NCBI RefSeq assembly: GCF_029264495.1
Contig: NZ_JARIBH010000030.1
Span: forward strand, 1 to 64,000
Length of the DNA: 64,000 bases
Direction: 5' to 3'
DNA from: Peptacetobacter sp.
GTDB lineage: Bacteria > Bacillota > Clostridia > Peptostreptococcales > Peptostreptococcaceae
Shown: positions 6,529 through 16,604 of the stretch, in pieces
Numbering within the stretch: position 1 is the stretch's first letter
Layout of the letters: the number at the start of each line of letters is the position of its first letter
The notes under the pieces: generated by a model
Told to the model about the DNA's origin: nothing
Database searches by the model: none
The model's input: only the letters and a program-made list of their open reading frames with translations
Position numbers and translations under genes: made by a program

Positions 6529-8652
6529 ATGAAAAGTGTATTAAAAAAAATAGCAACTATAACAATGGCTATGATGTTAGTAATAGGAAGTATTTCTTAT
6601 AAAAGTACATCATATGCACAAGAAAAAGAAATGAGAGCAGCTTGGGTATCTTCGGTATATAACTTAGATTGGCCCAAAACAAAAAATAATGCATCAAAAC
6701 AAAAATCAGAATTAATACAGTTAATGGACAAATTAAAAGGATGTGGTATAAATACAATAGTATTACAAGTAAGACCAGAATCAGATGCATTGTATAAATC
6801 ATCTATAAATCCTTGGTCTAAATATTTAACTGGAACACAAGGTAAAAATCCAGGATATGATCCTTTGGAATTTGCAGTAAGTGAAGCTCATAAAAGAGGA
6901 ATGGATATACATGCATGGTTTAATCCATATAGAGTTACATCATCAGGTACAGATTTAAATTCACTTGTACCATCTCATCCAGCTAGAAAAAATCCAAGTT
7001 GGGTTATAAAATATAATGGAAAAATGTATTATGATCCAGGTAATCCTCAAGTAGTAGACTATATTGTTAGAACAATAAAAGAAGTAGTAGACAATTATAA
7101 TATAGATGGTGTACATTTTGATGATTATTTCTATCCATCATCATCATTCCCAGATAATGTTTCATATGATAAGTATGGAAAGGGTCAGAATAGAGATAAT
7201 TGGAGAAGAGAAAATGTAAATACATTATTAAGAAAAGTAAAAGCTGTAGTAAATACTAAAAAAGGATGTGAATTTGGAGTTAGTCCATTTGGTATATGGA
7301 GAAATAAATCAACATCTTGTCCAGATGGTTCAGAAACTTCAGGAAGTCAATCATATACAAATATGTATGCTGATTCAAGAACTTGGATAAGAAAAGGATA
7401 TGTAGATTATATAGTTCCTCAGATTTATTGGCCAATAGGTTTAAAAGTTGCAGATTACTCAAAACTTGTAAAATGGTGGGCAAACGAAGTAAAAGGATAT
7501 GATGTAGATCTTTACATAGGACAAGGAATATATAAAAAAGGTCAAGAAAGTTATGGCGGACAGAATATAGCTAAAGAAATAAAAAATCAAATAAGTATAA
7601 ATAAAAAATACGATACTGTAAAAGGTAGTATGTATTTCTCAGCTAGAGATATAGTGAATAATAGCAATATATATAATGACTTAAAGAGTATGTATGGCTC
7701 ATACAATGGAAGTCAAAATCAATCAAATACAAAATTACCACAAGTTACAGAAATTCTAGGAAGAGATAGATATGATACAGCTATAAAAATAAGTAAAAAG
7801 GGTTGGAATTCATCATCTAAAGTTGTAATAGTAAATGGATATAATGAGCTAGAAGGAATAATAGCAAATCCACTTGCATCTGTATATAATTCACCTATAC
7901 TTTTAGTTGATAATAGCAAAGTAAAAAATGAAGTACTATCAGAAATAAAAAGATTAAATCCATCAGAAATAGTTATATCAGGAGTTAATAATTCAATAAG
8001 TAGTGTATCAGAAAATATTATACACAATGCTGTTCCTAATGCTAAAATAAAAAGAATTTCTGGAACAGATATTTCAGATTTATCTATGAATATAGCAAAA
8101 GAAATAGACTGTTTAAAAAATGTAAATAAAATTTATATAGCTGGTGAAAAAGGTGAAGCAGATGCTTTATCAATAGTATCAAAAGCAGCAGAAGAAAAAG
8201 CTCCTATAATAGTGACAAATAAAAATTACATAAATTCAAATGTGAAAAATTGGATATCATCAAATGATATTAAAACAGCATATTTTTTAGGTGGAGATGA
8301 AGTTTTATCAAATAATATACTAAATGAAATAAATTCTATAGTATCAGAAAATGTTTTAAACAACAGAATTGGTGGTGCTAATAGGAATCAGACTAATGCT
8401 AGAGTTATAAAAAAATTATATACTCAAAATGAATATAATACTGTATTTGTTACGAAAAATAGACCACTTGTAGATGCAATAAGTGTTGGTGCTTATGCAG
8501 CAAGAACTAAATCACCTATAGTAATAGCGGGACAATCTTTAGATACAGAACAAATAAATATACTTAATTCTAAAAAATCAAATTGTGTATTTAGAATTGG
8601 TGGAGGAATAGTTAATTCTAGTTTTAATAAAATTTTAGAAAGCTTAAAATAG
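6529..8652 (+). CDS. Secreted GHL10-family glycoside hydrolase-like protein with three CWB2 (CW_binding_2) repeats
   Basis: A signal peptide of about 30 residues (ending SYA) precedes a GHL10/YngK-type (COG1649) TIM-barrel domain spanning about 33-385. Its opening, EMRAAWVSSVYNLDWP, and the motifs WFNPYR, DGVHFDDYFYP and PQIYW are characteristic. Residues from about 405 to the end form three PF04122-type repeats (ILGRDRYDTA; RISGTD; RIGGANRNQTNA). In C. difficile such triplets anchor proteins non-covalently to a cell-wall polymer. The substrate is unknown; a glycan such as peptidoglycan is plausible. The start has AAGGAGG upstream. The L,D-transpeptidase at 48243 carries a similar CWB2 triplet, so both probably sit on the same wall polymer. 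Confidence 0.9.
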   Translation: MKSVLKKIATITMAMMLVIGSISYKSTSYAQEKEMRAAWVSSVYNLDWPKTKNNASKQKSELIQLMDKLKGCGINTIVLQVRPESDALYKSSINPWSKYLTGTQGKNPGYDPLEFAVSEAHKRGMDIHAWFNPYRVTSSGTDLNSLVPSHPARKNPSWVIKYNGKMYYDPGNPQVVDYIVRTIKEVVDNYNIDGVHFDDYFYPSSSFPDNVSYDKYGKGQNRDNWRRENVNTLLRKVKAVVNTKKGCEFGVSPFGIWRNKSTSCPDGSETSGSQSYTNMYADSRTWIRKGYVDYIVPQIYWPIGLKVADYSKLVKWWANEVKGYDVDLYIGQGIYKKGQESYGGQNIAKEIKNQISINKKYDTVKGSMYFSARDIVNNSNIYNDLKSMYGSYNGSQNQSNTKLPQVTEILGRDRYDTAIKISKKGWNSSSKVVIVNGYNELEGIIANPLASVYNSPILLVDNSKVKNEVLSEIKRLNPSEIVISGVNNSISSVSENIIHNAVPNAKIKRISGTDISDLSMNIAKEIDCLKNVNKIYIAGEKGEADALSIVSKAAEEKAPIIVTNKNYINSNVKNWISSNDIKTAYFLGGDEVLSNNILNEINSIVSENVLNNRIGGANRNQTNARVIKKLYTQNEYNTVFVTKNRPLVDAISVGAYAARTKSPIVIAGQSLDTEQINILNSKKSNCVFRIGGGIVNSSFNKILESLK

Positions 8653-11488: not shown

Positions 11489-11577
11489 AAAAATCCCTTC
11501 TTTCTTAACCTATCATATTACTTAGTTTAATTATTTAGTTTATAAATTTTATAAAAAGATTATAAAATCATCTTATA

Positions 11578-11606
11578 ATTATATTAGAATATCGAGAAAT
11601 ATTCAA
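11578..11606 (-). promoter_or_regulatory. Promoter of the second LCP gene
   Basis: On the minus strand, TTGAAT, 17 nt, TATAAT, about 85 nt upstream of the TTG start. Confidence 0.65.
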
Positions 11607-11678
11607 TAGATTTTAGCTTTTTATATTATATTATTCGAATTAAATGTAATTAATAATATTTTTATTCAATTAAAATTC

Positions 11679-11707
11679 TTGAAAAATCTATTTATCTAGA
11701 GTATATT
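11679..11707 (+). promoter_or_regulatory. Promoter of the HAD hydrolase gene
   Basis: TTGAAA, 17-nt spacer, TATATT. Transcription would begin close to 11713, which argues that the ATG at 11713 is not the real start. Confidence 0.65.
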
Positions 11708-11742
11708 AAAGAATGGCTAAAAAAGTAAATTGGAGGAATAAA

Positions 11743-12534
11743 ATGATAAAACTTATTGTGACTGATTTAGATGGTACAATATTAGATAATAGTGGTAATC
11801 TTAATGAAGAATTTGAAGCTGTCTTTAATGAAATTGATAAAAAAGGAATAATATTTATGGCTGCAAGTGGAAGACAATACCCTAGCCTTCTTAGAACATT
11901 TGAATCAGTAAAAGACAAGATGATGTACATAGCAGAAAATGGTACTTTTGCAGTATATAAAGGGAAAGAATTATTATGTGATCCTATTGATAAAGAAAGT
12001 GTAAATGAAATAATAGATTTTGCAAGAAAATCAAAAACAATGGAAATCCTTGTAAATACTAAATATACAGCCTATGTAGAGTGTAAGGATGAAGAATTTT
12101 TAGAAACATTAAAAATTTATTGTGCAGATGTAACAGTAGTTGATGATTTAAAAGAAGTTAATGAAGAAATTTTAAAAGTGTCTATATATGATAGAGAGCT
12201 TATAATAAACAATTGCAAACCTTATTTTGATAAATTTGGTGAAAGAATGAGTGTTTGTACATCTGGAGAACATTGGTTAGATATAATGAAAAAAGGTGTT
12301 ACAAAAGGAAAGGCTTTAGAGACGATAAAAAAAGAATATGGATTAAAAGATGATGAAATAATGATATTTGGAGATCAAATGAATGATTTAGAACTTATAG
12401 AGTGTGGGTACTATAGTTATGCTATGGAAAATGCTATTGATGAATTAAAAGAAAAGGCTAGATTTATAGCTGGAAGAAATGATGAAAATGGAGTATTGGA
12501 AAAGATAAAAGAAGTTTTAGATATAACTATATAA
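11743..12534 (+). CDS. Cof-type HAD-superfamily phosphatase
   Basis: Cytosolic phosphatase of the HAD IIB (Cof) group; substrates are typically sugar phosphates or similar small metabolites and cannot be fixed from sequence. It shows motif I DLDGTI with nucleophile and acid/base Asp, motif II-type AASGRQ, a conserved Lys in the KGVTKGKAL segment, and motif IV GDQMNDLEL. The length of 263 residues is normal. I start at ATG 11743 (IKLIVTDLDG follows), which has GGAGG at the right distance, and not at 11713. It stands alone with its own promoter and terminator. Confidence 0.9.
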   Translation: MIKLIVTDLDGTILDNSGNLNEEFEAVFNEIDKKGIIFMAASGRQYPSLLRTFESVKDKMMYIAENGTFAVYKGKELLCDPIDKESVNEIIDFARKSKTMEILVNTKYTAYVECKDEEFLETLKIYCADVTVVDDLKEVNEEILKVSIYDRELIINNCKPYFDKFGERMSVCTSGEHWLDIMKKGVTKGKALETIKKEYGLKDDEIMIFGDQMNDLELIECGYYSYAMENAIDELKEKARFIAGRNDENGVLEKIKEVLDITI

Positions 12535-12561
12535 AAAATAAAAAATTACATAAAATAAAGT

Positions 12562-12603
12562 AAAAGACTTAGGTATTTAATAATTATATCTAAGTCTTTT
12601 TAT
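12562..12603 (+). terminator. Rho-independent terminator
   Basis: AAAAGACTTAG / CTAAGTCTTTT stem with an AT-rich loop, then T residues. Confidence 0.85.
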
Positions 12604-13100
12604 TATAAAAATTATTTTTAGTATTACATATTAAATTAATCTTGAAAATATGCATTAAATGATAAAATATATTCAAATTCAATATATAAAATAGTATAAA
12701 TTGTAAATTATAAAATATATTACCATACATATAGTTAAAAAAATAACTATTTTTAAAATATAAAATATGAAAAAAATAAAAAAATAATAAAAATGGATAC
12801 AACTTATAACAAAGATGTAGGTTGTTGAATAAATAAAGATTATTCAGAAAATTTATAAAATAAATATTATTATGACTTGAAAGATAAGTCAAAGAGAGAA
12901 TTTTTCTTGTAAAAATGGATAAAAATGGATATTTTACCTAATTATTAAAATTGTATAAAAAAATAAAAAAATTTATTACAATTTATCGAAAAAGGCTTTA
13001 CTTTTTGGAATATTTTTGTTAAACTATAATCAAAGAAAAAGATAAATAAATATCAAACAAGATTTAAAATATATTGTTTATATAAATGGAGGGGACAGTT
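12604..13100. other. AT-rich intergenic region upstream of the PIITS-repeat gene
   Basis: I see no gene here. The minus-strand ORF at 12590-12892 is low complexity (Tyr/Phe/Leu/Asn) with no ribosome binding site and is rejected. A -10 TATAAT at 13025-13030 with only a poor -35 (TTTTTG) 17 nt upstream probably drives the next gene, perhaps with an activator. Short repeats of AAAATGGATA occur near 12913-12935. Confidence 0.6.
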
Positions 13101-13523
13101 ATGAAAAAGCTAAAAGTAAAAAAAATATTAGTATCAGCAATTACAGCAGTGGTATTAGCATCAGGAGTTGGTCTTCAAGGTGTTAGTGCAATGGAAAGAG
13201 TAAGTGAAAATACTAATTATCTAAAGCCAATAATAACATCAAGACCTTCAGATTTAAAAGAAGCAGACAAAAATACAATAAAAATATCTTTAGATATTGA
13301 TGAAATGAGTCCAATAATAACATCAAGAAATTTTATTAAAGAAGAAATAAAAAATGATGATTTAGAATTAAATAAAGTAGCTGAAAAAGATATAATGAAT
13401 CCAATAATAACATCAAGAGATTTTATTAATAAGGAAGAAAAAATGGATATAAAAACAACAGCATCAAATTATGATGTTATGAATCCAATAATAACATCTG
13501 AAACTATCTTATCTCACAAATAG
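13101..13523 (+). CDS. Small secreted protein with four PIITS(R/E) repeats; function unknown
   Basis: I do not recognise a family. The chosen start is ATG 13101 (GGAGGGG upstream), not 13086, giving 140 residues. A signal peptide ends near VSA (residue 30). The mature part of about 110 residues is acidic and charged and holds four copies of a hydrophobic core: PIITSR at 43-48, 71-76 and 101-106, and PIITSE at 129-134. The last two are preceded by MN, and the second and third are followed by a Phe-containing RNF/RDF. Spacing is 28, 30 and 28 residues. Repeated short cores in charged linkers suggest either a multi-copy peptide precursor or a repeated binding motif; this is inference. The gene is flanked by its own terminator. 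Confidence 0.75.
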   Translation: MKKLKVKKILVSAITAVVLASGVGLQGVSAMERVSENTNYLKPIITSRPSDLKEADKNTIKISLDIDEMSPIITSRNFIKEEIKNDDLELNKVAEKDIMNPIITSRDFINKEEKMDIKTTASNYDVMNPIITSETILSHK

Positions 13524-13562
13524 AGAGACAATATAAATTAATCCCAAAAGACTTATAATTTT

Positions 13563-13592
13563 AAAAAAGCAGGTTATATAACCTGCTTTTTT
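13563..13592 (+). terminator. Rho-independent terminator
   Basis: AAAGCAGGTTATATAACCTGCTTT hairpin with a T tract. Confidence 0.92.
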
Positions 13593-13686
13593 AATGCTTT
13601 AAATGAAAAATGATAAAATCGATTTCGTTGAAAAAAATTTTATTAAATGCTAGAATAATAAGGAATACAGAGAAAAAGGTGATACT

Positions 13687-14766
13687 ATGACAACGAATAA
13701 TAATAGTAAAAAATCAAAAAAAAGTAATGTTATATATATAGACAGAAAAAGAAATGAAAAAGTAAATACAAATAAAAATAATTTATCTAAAAAAAGCAAA
13801 GAACAAAAGAAAAATAATAATTTAAATAAAAATCATAATAAAGAAAAAGAAAATTCAAACAAAACAAAAAATAATAATTTAAAACAAAAATCAAGTCATA
13901 AAAAAATAAATAATAAGAAAAATAATTCAAAAAAAGTAAGTAATAACACAAAAAAAGATAATAATCCACAAAAACATAAAAGTAAAAAATTGAGAATAAA
14001 TAAAAAAATAAAAATAATTTTATCAATATTATTAGTAATAATAGTAGTATTTTTTGGAACAAAAGGTGTACAAAAAATAATGAATAAAGATACAAAATCT
14101 AGTGTAAGTATATCAAATACTAAAGATAATGAAAGTTTAGATAAAAATGAGATTGAGAAAAACCAATATGATTTAAAAGATGAAAAAAAAGATGTTTCAA
14201 AAAAATATAATATAGTAATAGATGCAGGTCATGGTGGTAATGACAAAGGTTCTATAGATAGCACTGATACAATATATGAAAAAGATATAGCTCTTCAAAT
14301 AGCGAAAAAAGTAGCATCTAGACTAGGAAGAGAATCAGATGTAAATATAACTATGACAAGAACAGAAGATAAGTATGTAAGTTTAGAAGAAAGAGCAGAA
14401 ATAGCTAAAAGAGCAAATGCAGATGCATTGATATCTATACATCTAAATGCTCAAAAAAAATTTGGAGATGCAAATGGATTAGAAACATGGTATAGAGGAG
14501 GAGCTACAGATGGATCTAAAGAACTTGCAGAATCAGTGCAACAAACTACATCAGCATATATAGATATAATGAATAGGGGTATTTTACAAAACAACTTTGA
14601 AATTTTAAGAGAAACTACAATGCCAGCAGTTTTAGTTGAATGTGGATTTATAACTAATGTATCTGATATGGAAAAAATTAAAAATAATAAATATCAGGAT
14701 ATGCTAGCTGAAGGTATAATGCAAGGAACGCTTTCATTTTTAGATAAGAAAAATGGAAAAAACTAA
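13687..14766 (+). CDS. Membrane-anchored N-acetylmuramoyl-L-alanine amidase (Amidase_3)
   Basis: Zinc enzyme that cuts the amide between MurNAc and L-Ala. Residues 1-110 are a Lys/Asn-rich low-complexity cytoplasmic segment. One transmembrane helix follows near 113-130 (ILSILLVIIVVFF), then a linker and the Amidase_3 domain from about 177. Zinc and catalytic motifs are IDAGHGG (His), the Glu of YEKDIAL, SIHLNA (His) and VLVECGF (Glu). It lacks a cleavable signal, so the catalytic domain stays tethered outside. It lies 44 nt before the CamA-like methyltransferase gene. From memory, an amidase also lies close to camA in C. difficile. The Lys/Asn tract is poly-A-rich DNA and may be prone to indels. 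Confidence 0.92.
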   Translation: MTTNNNSKKSKKSNVIYIDRKRNEKVNTNKNNLSKKSKEQKKNNNLNKNHNKEKENSNKTKNNNLKQKSSHKKINNKKNNSKKVSNNTKKDNNPQKHKSKKLRINKKIKIILSILLVIIVVFFGTKGVQKIMNKDTKSSVSISNTKDNESLDKNEIEKNQYDLKDEKKDVSKKYNIVIDAGHGGNDKGSIDSTDTIYEKDIALQIAKKVASRLGRESDVNITMTRTEDKYVSLEERAEIAKRANADALISIHLNAQKKFGDANGLETWYRGGATDGSKELAESVQQTTSAYIDIMNRGILQNNFEILRETTMPAVLVECGFITNVSDMEKIKNNKYQDMLAEGIMQGTLSFLDKKNGKN

Positions 14767-14810
14767 TGTAAAATAAATAAAATATATTTACTTATTTTGA
14801 GGTAATTGTT

Positions 14811-16604
14811 ATGGATAAATTTGAAGATTCTAGAATATACGAAAAAAGTTTAGATATAGAAAAAAGAAAAAGATATGGAATATATTATACACCAAAAGAA
14901 GTAGTAGAATATATTGTAGATGATACTATAAAAGATATTGATGTAATAGAAAATCCATGTCCAAAAATTTTAGATTCATCATGTGGTTGTGGAAACTTTT
15001 TATTAGAAGTATTCGAAAAATTAAAGATTAAATTTATTAAAAACTCAGATAAACTATTAGAAAAATATAATAATGATATATTTAAAGAAGAAAATATACC
15101 TAAATATATTCTCGAAAACTGTATCTATGCTACTGATATAGATAAAAAAGCAGTTGAAATTGCTAAAAAATTATTATTAGAAAAAGCAAATATAGAAAGA
15201 AATGAAAATGTAAAATTAAATATATATATAGAAGATGGGTTAAAAATAAAATGGAATACTAAATTTGATGTAATAATAGGAAATCCTCCATATGTAGGAC
15301 ATAAACATCTAACAAAAGAATATAAAGAATTTATATTAGAAGAATACAAAGATGTTTATAAAGATAAATCAGATTTATATTTTTGCTTTTATAAAAATTC
15401 ATTAGATATATTAAAAGACAATGGTGTAATACATCTTATAACGCCAAGGTATTTTTTAGAAAGTATGTCAGCATTTCTTTTAAGAGAATATATACAAAAA
15501 AATGCTGAAATAGAAGAATTAATAGATTTTTTAGGGGATGAAGTTTTTACTTATATAGGGATATCTGCTTGTATAATAAAAATGAGAAAAAAAGGATATG
15601 GAATAGAAAAAACTAATATTTATAGAAAAAAATCAGATAAATATGTATGTATGAAGAAAAGAAAAAGTGAGATATCAATAAAAGAATTAAAAGAAAAAGA
15701 TGAGATTTTTGAAAGGCTAATAATAGATACAGAAAAATTACAATCCAACTGGATTATAGCTAATGAAAAAGATATGGATTTATATTTAAAAATAGAAGAA
15801 AAAGCAAAATATAGATTATCTGATATAGCTGAGAGTTTTCAAGGAATAATAACTGGATGTGATAAAGCATTTATTCTAAAAAAAGATGACGATAGAATTA
15901 AAAATATAGACAGTAAACTATTAAAACAATGGGTAAAAAATAAAGATATAGATAAATATGTAATAAAAAATATAAATTATAAATTAATATATTCTAATGA
16001 TATAGATAATGATGAAGAATATGATTATGCTTTAGAAACATGTATAAAACCATATAAAAAAAAGTTAGAAAATAGAAGAGAATGCTTAAAAGGTATAAGA
16101 AAGTGGTATGAATTACAATGGGGAAGAGAAAAAAAGCTTTTTGAAAGAAAAAAAGTTATGTATCCTTATAAATCTAGAGATAATAAATTTGCACTAGATT
16201 ATGATAATTTATATAGTAGTGCAGATGTATATTCTTTTTATCTTAAAGAAGAATGTGAAAAGATTTTTTCTTATGAATATATAGTAGCATTATTAAACTC
16301 ATCTATTTATGATAGGTATTATAAAATAGGTGCGAAAAAGATGAGTAGAGGAATTTATGATTATTATCCAAATAAAGTTATGGATATAAAGATTTTAAAA
16401 GGAGATAATTATAAAAAAATAGAAAATTATTCTAAAAAAATTATGGAAAAAAAAGATGATATATTAGATAATATAAATAATAGCATTCAAAAAAGTACAT
16501 TAGAAAAAGAAAAATATTTATTAGAAAATAAAAAAAAATCTGATGAAATAAAAGAGTTAATAAAAGATATAGACTTATTAATAGAAGAAGATATTTTTAA
16601 TTAA
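14811..16604 (+). CDS. camA: Orphan DNA adenine-N6 methyltransferase, CamA-like
   Basis: Type II-like N6-adenine methyltransferase with a C-terminal target recognition domain and no restriction partner nearby. The N-terminal GIYYTPKEVVEYIV is followed by motif I LDSSCGCGNFLLEV (SAM binding, about 54-67) and catalytic NPPY at 158-161. The C-terminal half holds FQGIITGCDKAFIL, ENRREC..GIRKWYELQWG and SSADVYSF, which I recognise from C. difficile CamA, the CAAAAA-specific methylase that affects sporulation and biofilm. The 597-residue length is close to CamA (about 577). The order amidase, methyltransferase, patatin, ptsH, ptsI matches what I recall of the C. difficile camA locus. Target specificity here is inferred, not shown. 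Confidence 0.88.
   Translation: MDKFEDSRIYEKSLDIEKRKRYGIYYTPKEVVEYIVDDTIKDIDVIENPCPKILDSSCGCGNFLLEVFEKLKIKFIKNSDKLLEKYNNDIFKEENIPKYILENCIYATDIDKKAVEIAKKLLLEKANIERNENVKLNIYIEDGLKIKWNTKFDVIIGNPPYVGHKHLTKEYKEFILEEYKDVYKDKSDLYFCFYKNSLDILKDNGVIHLITPRYFLESMSAFLLREYIQKNAEIEELIDFLGDEVFTYIGISACIIKMRKKGYGIEKTNIYRKKSDKYVCMKKRKSEISIKELKEKDEIFERLIIDTEKLQSNWIIANEKDMDLYLKIEEKAKYRLSDIAESFQGIITGCDKAFILKKDDDRIKNIDSKLLKQWVKNKDIDKYVIKNINYKLIYSNDIDNDEEYDYALETCIKPYKKKLENRRECLKGIRKWYELQWGREKKLFERKKVMYPYKSRDNKFALDYDNLYSSADVYSFYLKEECEKIFSYEYIVALLNSSIYDRYYKIGAKKMSRGIYDYYPNKVMDIKILKGDNYKKIENYSKKIMEKKDDILDNINNSIQKSTLEKEKYLLENKKKSDEIKELIKDIDLLIEEDIFN

Follow-up and report, generated by a model that had tools for sequence, protein, structure and literature searches.

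Multi-copy precursors of secreted peptide pheromones have been described for systems of the Bacillales in which the receptor is encoded next door (PMC9765709). RRNPPA propeptides may carry up to 6 identical copies of the peptide (PMC9765709), and in duplicated Phr propeptides the pheromones are conserved while the linkers are not (PMC11343458). The length of RRNPPA propeptides has been given as 50-120 residues (PMC11343458) or as 10-100 residues (PMC10075063). RstA of Clostridioides difficile has been described as an orphan RRNPP regulator, the precursor of which is not adjacent (PMC6414698, PMC11115286). These statements, and the comparisons made with them below, follow excerpts of the cited papers.

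In this work we have analyzed a gene encoding a secreted protein with four PIITS units (Table 1), located in a stretch of 64,000 nucleotides from Peptacetobacter sp. (contig NZ_JARIBH010000030.1; referred to as the window). We propose that its product is a putative multi-copy peptide precursor, an unfolded protein in which a short peptide is repeated, and put the probability of this reading at roughly 45%. The open reading frame, the signal peptide, the three copies of PIITSR followed by PIITSE and the period of 28-30 residues were all found where the initial annotation of this DNA had placed them. PIITS occurs at residues 43, 71, 101 and 129, with spacing of 28, 30 and 28 residues. There is an alternative in-frame ATG at 13086, but 13101 is the better start since the ribosome-binding sequence GGAGGGG directly precedes it. 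By eye, the leader consists of a basic start, a hydrophobic stretch and an AxA-like end. The mature protein contains 16 K/R and 21 D/E residues, and the linkers are strongly charged. When the mature part was shuffled 20,000 times, no 5-mer appeared four times; a 5-mer was found three times in one shuffle and twice in 321.

Table 1 Features of the PIITS locus (coordinates of the window)
Feature	Position	Strand	Basis or remark
Upstream neighbour, HAD hydrolase (Hydrolase_3)	11743..12534	+	family match
CodY-like box ATTATTCAGAAAATT	12839..12853		262 bases before start codon
Promoter block, TATAAT at 13025-13030	12997..13035	+	in 3/3 genomes
Gene for 140-residue secreted protein with four PIITS units	13101..13523	+	ORF read, orthologues in 3/3 genus genomes
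Sec-type signal peptide, probable type I cut after VSA (residue 30)	13101..13190	+	by reading
Unit 1 core PIITSR	13227..13244	+	repeat analysis
Unit 2 core PIITSR	13311..13328	+	repeat analysis
Unit 3 core PIITSR	13401..13418	+	repeat analysis
Unit 4 core PIITSE, then C-terminal tail TILSHK	13485..13502	+	repeat analysis
Intrinsic terminator hairpin and T run	13561..13594	+	hairpin computation
Downstream neighbour, N-acetylmuramoyl-L-alanine amidase (Amidase_3)	13687..14766	+	family match

Orthologues were found at the same place, with the same surrounding gene order, in all three Peptacetobacter genomes searched: that of the window (G000, 94.5% complete), P. hominis (G001) and a third genome, G002. 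The three species probably include P. hiranonis, a gut bacterium that 7-alpha-dehydroxylates bile acids. The window protein is 140 residues long and its two orthologues 160 and 99, and the number of PIITS copies, the comparison of which the initial annotation had suggested, differs between the species: four in the window, five in G002 and three in P. hominis. The leaders of both orthologues have, by eye, the same layout as that of the window protein and end in ASA and VNA. A protein search of the window genome and 60 relatives gave convincing orthologues only in the other two genomes of the genus, and a profile search of 71 genomes of the family recovered the same three. No relative was detected by this search in the other 68 family genomes; two weak matches (E 0.003 and 0.006) show no P[IVL][IVL]T[ST] motif in any frame over 40 residues. 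Among the eight genomes of genus g18, which we take to be Clostridioides, the profile search did not find the gene and gave one weak match without the motif. At the level of the order, a motif pattern that requires M at position -2, and to which the units with L there (2/12) are invisible, matched 10 of 393 genomes: the three of the genus (3, 2 and 4 hits) and seven others with one hit each, at loci never containing more than one motif per frame. In a genome contig database, from which records close to the genome of the window may be left out, none of 207 pattern stretches was confirmed with the single protein and one of 59 (P. hominis) with the alignment. Searches of phages, plasmids and viral contigs gave no match to the protein.

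The PIITS core is invariant in all 12 units of the three species, and the linkers change; a core not conserved in homologues would, according to the initial annotation, have spoken against its proposal. That annotation had also pointed to the core DNA CCAATAATAACATC. Its identity in all four copies of the window does hold, but it proves little by itself because each of its codons is the commonest in the genome (CCA 0.67, ATA 0.81, ACA 0.54 and TCA 0.41), and the orthologues encode identical core residues by other codons. Recent duplication and DNA-level constraint were considered as causes of the identical core DNA and rejected, given the synonymous changes in the orthologues and the divergence of the units. 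Over all pairs of units, which are not independent of each other, codon differences in the core are synonymous in 77 cases and nonsynonymous in none; the corresponding numbers for the linkers are 80 and 881, which argues for selection at the protein level. Because of this non-independence, the four orthologous units of the window and G002 provide a cleaner test: 6 synonymous and 0 nonsynonymous differences in the core, 13 and 32 in the linkers (Fisher p 0.0015). From these codon comparisons we conclude that the motif is under protein-level selection. The DNA of orthologous units is 0.70, 0.70, 0.80 and 0.87 identical between the window and G002, as compared with 0.53-0.74 among the units of either protein; orthologous units are thus mostly more alike than units of the same protein, so that the repeats are old and have been kept. 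In our reading of the alignment the extra unit of G002 appears as a clean whole-unit difference. The repeated motif is real, and the case for it is stronger than could be known from the window sequence on which the initial annotation was based.

Alignment of the 12 units gave the consensus D-x-M-N-P-I-I-T-S-R. Arg follows the core in 9/12 units; the only exceptions are the last units of the three proteins, where E, E and A take its place. Also kept outside the core are M at -2 (10/12), D at -4 (8/12) and K/D around +13/+15, and the spacing of units is regular (27-30 residues) across the three species. After the C-terminal copy the protein continues with ETILSHK or ATVK.

Profile searches of Pfam, NCBIfam, PHROGs and PDB returned nothing convincing for the protein, in agreement with the initial annotation, in which no known family had been recognised. 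Weak matches, with best E values of 0.0048 (Pfam) and 0.0027 (PHROGs), concern unrelated families and were discarded; the one match in Pfam for the window protein, to DUF3660, scored 16.5 bits, below the cut-off of 25. Cys and Trp are absent. A structure model, of low confidence (mean pLDDT 48.6, three-sequence alignment), is mostly unstructured and contains no strand. A folded domain built of the repeats, which the initial annotation had named as the finding that would contradict it, was seen neither in the family searches nor in this model. Literature searches found no mention of PIITSR or NPIITS; those on Peptacetobacter and quorum sensing, and on hiranonis and secretome among the matches listed, gave no paper about the protein by title.

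The gene stands alone, preceded by a spacer of about 570 bases. The best conserved upstream block (about 12987-13062) has an exact TATAAT and lacks a good -35, which bears out the promoter with a poor -35 reported earlier. The 39-base pattern of the promoter block has one site per genome in the three genomes at up to 3 mismatches, always at this place, and no shared regulon was therefore found for it. A generic promoter scan gave 12 promoter-like sites as compared with 11.9 in shuffles. The gene has, as had been claimed, its own terminator, a hairpin of 15 pairs (-17.8 kcal/mol, z -5.8), and hairpins are present in both orthologues too. A simple terminator scan found none, we think because the stem runs into the T run. 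CodY-like boxes with up to 2 mismatches lie 262 (window), 260 (G002) and 264 (P. hominis) bases upstream, and a gene for CodY is present in 3/3 genomes. The number of boxes taken alone is significant only in G002 (three boxes at up to 2 mismatches, reached in 0/1000 shuffles), the window and P. hominis having a single box apiece (p 0.07); allowing 3 or 4 mismatches gives no excess in the window. Control of the gene by CodY is predicted as probable, the common position of the box at 260-264 being a better argument than the box counts. No riboswitch or leader RNA was matched by Rfam in 11500-15500 at E up to 1.

The neighbourhood comprises the HAD hydrolase, the amidase, a DNA methylase, a patatin, HPr, PTS enzyme I and LytR-CpsA-Psr proteins. 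The amidase is apparently membrane-anchored, judging from a hydrophobic stretch seen by reading. In the neighbouring genus g6, presumably Peptostreptococcus, 9 genomes of which gave HAD matches, a gap of 8 to 39 bases that holds no gene separates the HAD and amidase genes at 5/5 loci examined. Peptacetobacter has thus either gained the gene or is the only genus to have kept it, and the neighbourhood says little about its function. Several other elements of the region were recorded. An Eco57I-like DNA methylase (14811-16604), for which no restriction partner is obvious, lies between amidase and patatin, and methylase-like ORFs follow the amidase, by reading, at loci L120 and L122 too. Transposase-like ORFs were read as an insertion between the two LytR-CpsA-Psr genes of G002 (L137:5290-6868), and a large exported protein of the window (6529-8652) combines a GHL10 glycosidase-like domain with CWB2 cell-wall binding repeats.

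According to the precursor reading, a small exported protein that would lack a stable fold is expressed from its own conserved promoter, which CodY probably controls, so that expression would track the nutrient state. Once the leader is removed, 3 to 5 copies of the linear motif would be displayed in charged linkers; extracellular proteases would cut the linkers, probably beside the Arg after the core, and several copies of an NPIITSR-like peptide may be released as an extracellular signal. That a linear motif stays frozen while its linkers drift suggests direct contact of the motif with a partner. The presence of Arg in internal units and its loss from the last one would suit a cut site for the internal copies. 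The differences by whole units, together with the parallel of the duplicated Phr propeptides, would speak for a precursor, and the lack of Cys and Trp and the mostly unstructured model may be counted for it as well. Against it stand the residues kept beyond the core and the regular spacing, which are more than a bare precursor needs, the residues after the C-terminal copy, the lack of a receptor among the proteins found and the restriction of the HTH-TPR candidate to two of the three genomes. The peptide-precursor reading is plausible and partly supported: two checks named in the initial annotation, conservation of the core in homologues and comparison of the repeat number, spoke for its proposal of a pheromone-like propeptide or of tandem ligand motifs, and the searches yielded no receptor common to the three genomes.

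The main rival assumes that the protein remains uncut and acts as a disordered multivalent ligand. All PIITS units would dock on one and the same partner, e.g. a protein of the cell surface or wall, and avidity would rise with their number. This reading would account for the regular spacing, the extra conserved residues near the core and the 3 to 5 copies throughout, and cell-wall-related neighbours (the amidase, two LytR-CpsA-Psr proteins and the CWB2 protein) fit it, but HAD hydrolase and amidase occur together without the gene in genus g6, and profile searches found no anchor, wall-binding domain or partner in the protein; we regard it as possible though doubtful. A structural or aggregating secreted protein, such as a fibre or matrix component with stacked PIITS strands, could be built of short beta-branched cores at regular spacing, and its unit number could vary as it does in known fibre proteins. 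The charged linkers, the proline that opens every core and the absence of a strand from the low-confidence model make it very unlikely.

A classical RRNPPA propeptide, the peptide of which would be re-imported by an oligopeptide permease and bind an intracellular TPR receptor encoded elsewhere, agrees with the leader (Sec-type by eye in 3/3 orthologues), the copy number and the conservation pattern, the motif copies being better conserved than the linkers (12/12 cores invariant). Unlinked or orphan receptors are known in the class, e.g. RstA of C. difficile (PMC6414698). The expected TPR receptor of 250-500 residues is absent from beside the gene, whose direct neighbours belong to other families in the same order in the three genomes, and only one of the three orthologues falls within the propeptide length range. 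HTH_3 and TPR_12 searches of the three genomes revealed no HTH-TPR protein common to all; the candidates, HTH proteins with a weak TPR match, are L073 of G002 and its relative L070 of P. hominis, the L073 type having no match at E 1e-10 in the 94.5% complete window genome. SBP_bac_5 matches numbered two in G000, three in G001 and one in G002, where the only match is a 707-residue lipoprotein with no permease genes alongside; it has orthologues in all three genomes, and G000 and G001 additionally hold one or two SBP_bac_5 proteins of 553-558 residues. These searches employed two receptor models (HTH_3, TPR_12) and one transporter model (SBP_bac_5), which a divergent receptor could escape. Since adjacency fails, these searches found no common HTH-TPR protein and the SBP_bac_5 protein of G002 is an orphan, the protein is not filed in the RRNPPA class; membership is not supported, and we consider the classical scheme improbable. 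The lipoprotein of 658-707 residues (L141:1951-4074 in G002, L142:2358-4415 in G000, L143:3315-5291 in G001), again with no permease genes alongside, adjoins in the three genomes a gene that reads as lytic-transglycosylase-like, and is possibly an orphan peptide sensor. No rstA-like gene was seen beside parB, near which we take rstA of C. difficile to lie, in the three Peptacetobacter regions, a weak negative, and none was found by the HTH_3/TPR_12 searches, in which RstA itself was not the query. Only tentatively do we suggest a genus-wide extracellular peptide system of Peptacetobacter, in which the CodY-linked protein would release or display 3 to 5 copies of NPIITS(R) that act extracellularly or via another receptor, outside the RRNPPA scheme; this leans on the missing adjacent TPR receptor and on one species without an obvious Opp-type oligopeptide-binding protein.

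Fungal precursors of the alpha-factor type carry repeated pheromone copies with constant dibasic cut sites. The PIITS protein resembles them in that a secreted precursor would carry one peptide several times over, but shows no homology and lacks such sites. With the Phr/NprX/AimP/PapR-type propeptides, as excerpted, it shares the small Sec-exported precursor, repeated near-identical motifs in variable copy number and the conservation of motifs but not of linkers (PMC11343458, PMC9765709). It differs from the Phr type in the lack of an adjacent TPR receptor, in its length (99-160 versus 50-120 residues) and in its motif, unlike the Phr peptides RRGHTA and SRGHTS of these excerpts (PMC11343458, PMC9765709); moreover, the gene occupies one fixed chromosomal place in a genus of the Peptostreptococcaceae, whereas the Phr type belongs to the Bacillales. 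The RstA system is found in the same bacterial family as Peptacetobacter and has a receptor with no precursor beside it, but the PIITS gene was found in 0/8 genomes of genus g18 and no rstA-like gene was found in Peptacetobacter. The question of the orphan receptor RstA illustrates, as far as the excerpt of PMC6414698 goes, the difficulty of finding such precursors in this family. The PIITS protein offers a clear candidate from gut Peptostreptococcaceae, and with its motif named to five residues peptide signalling in the group becomes testable with a synthetic peptide.
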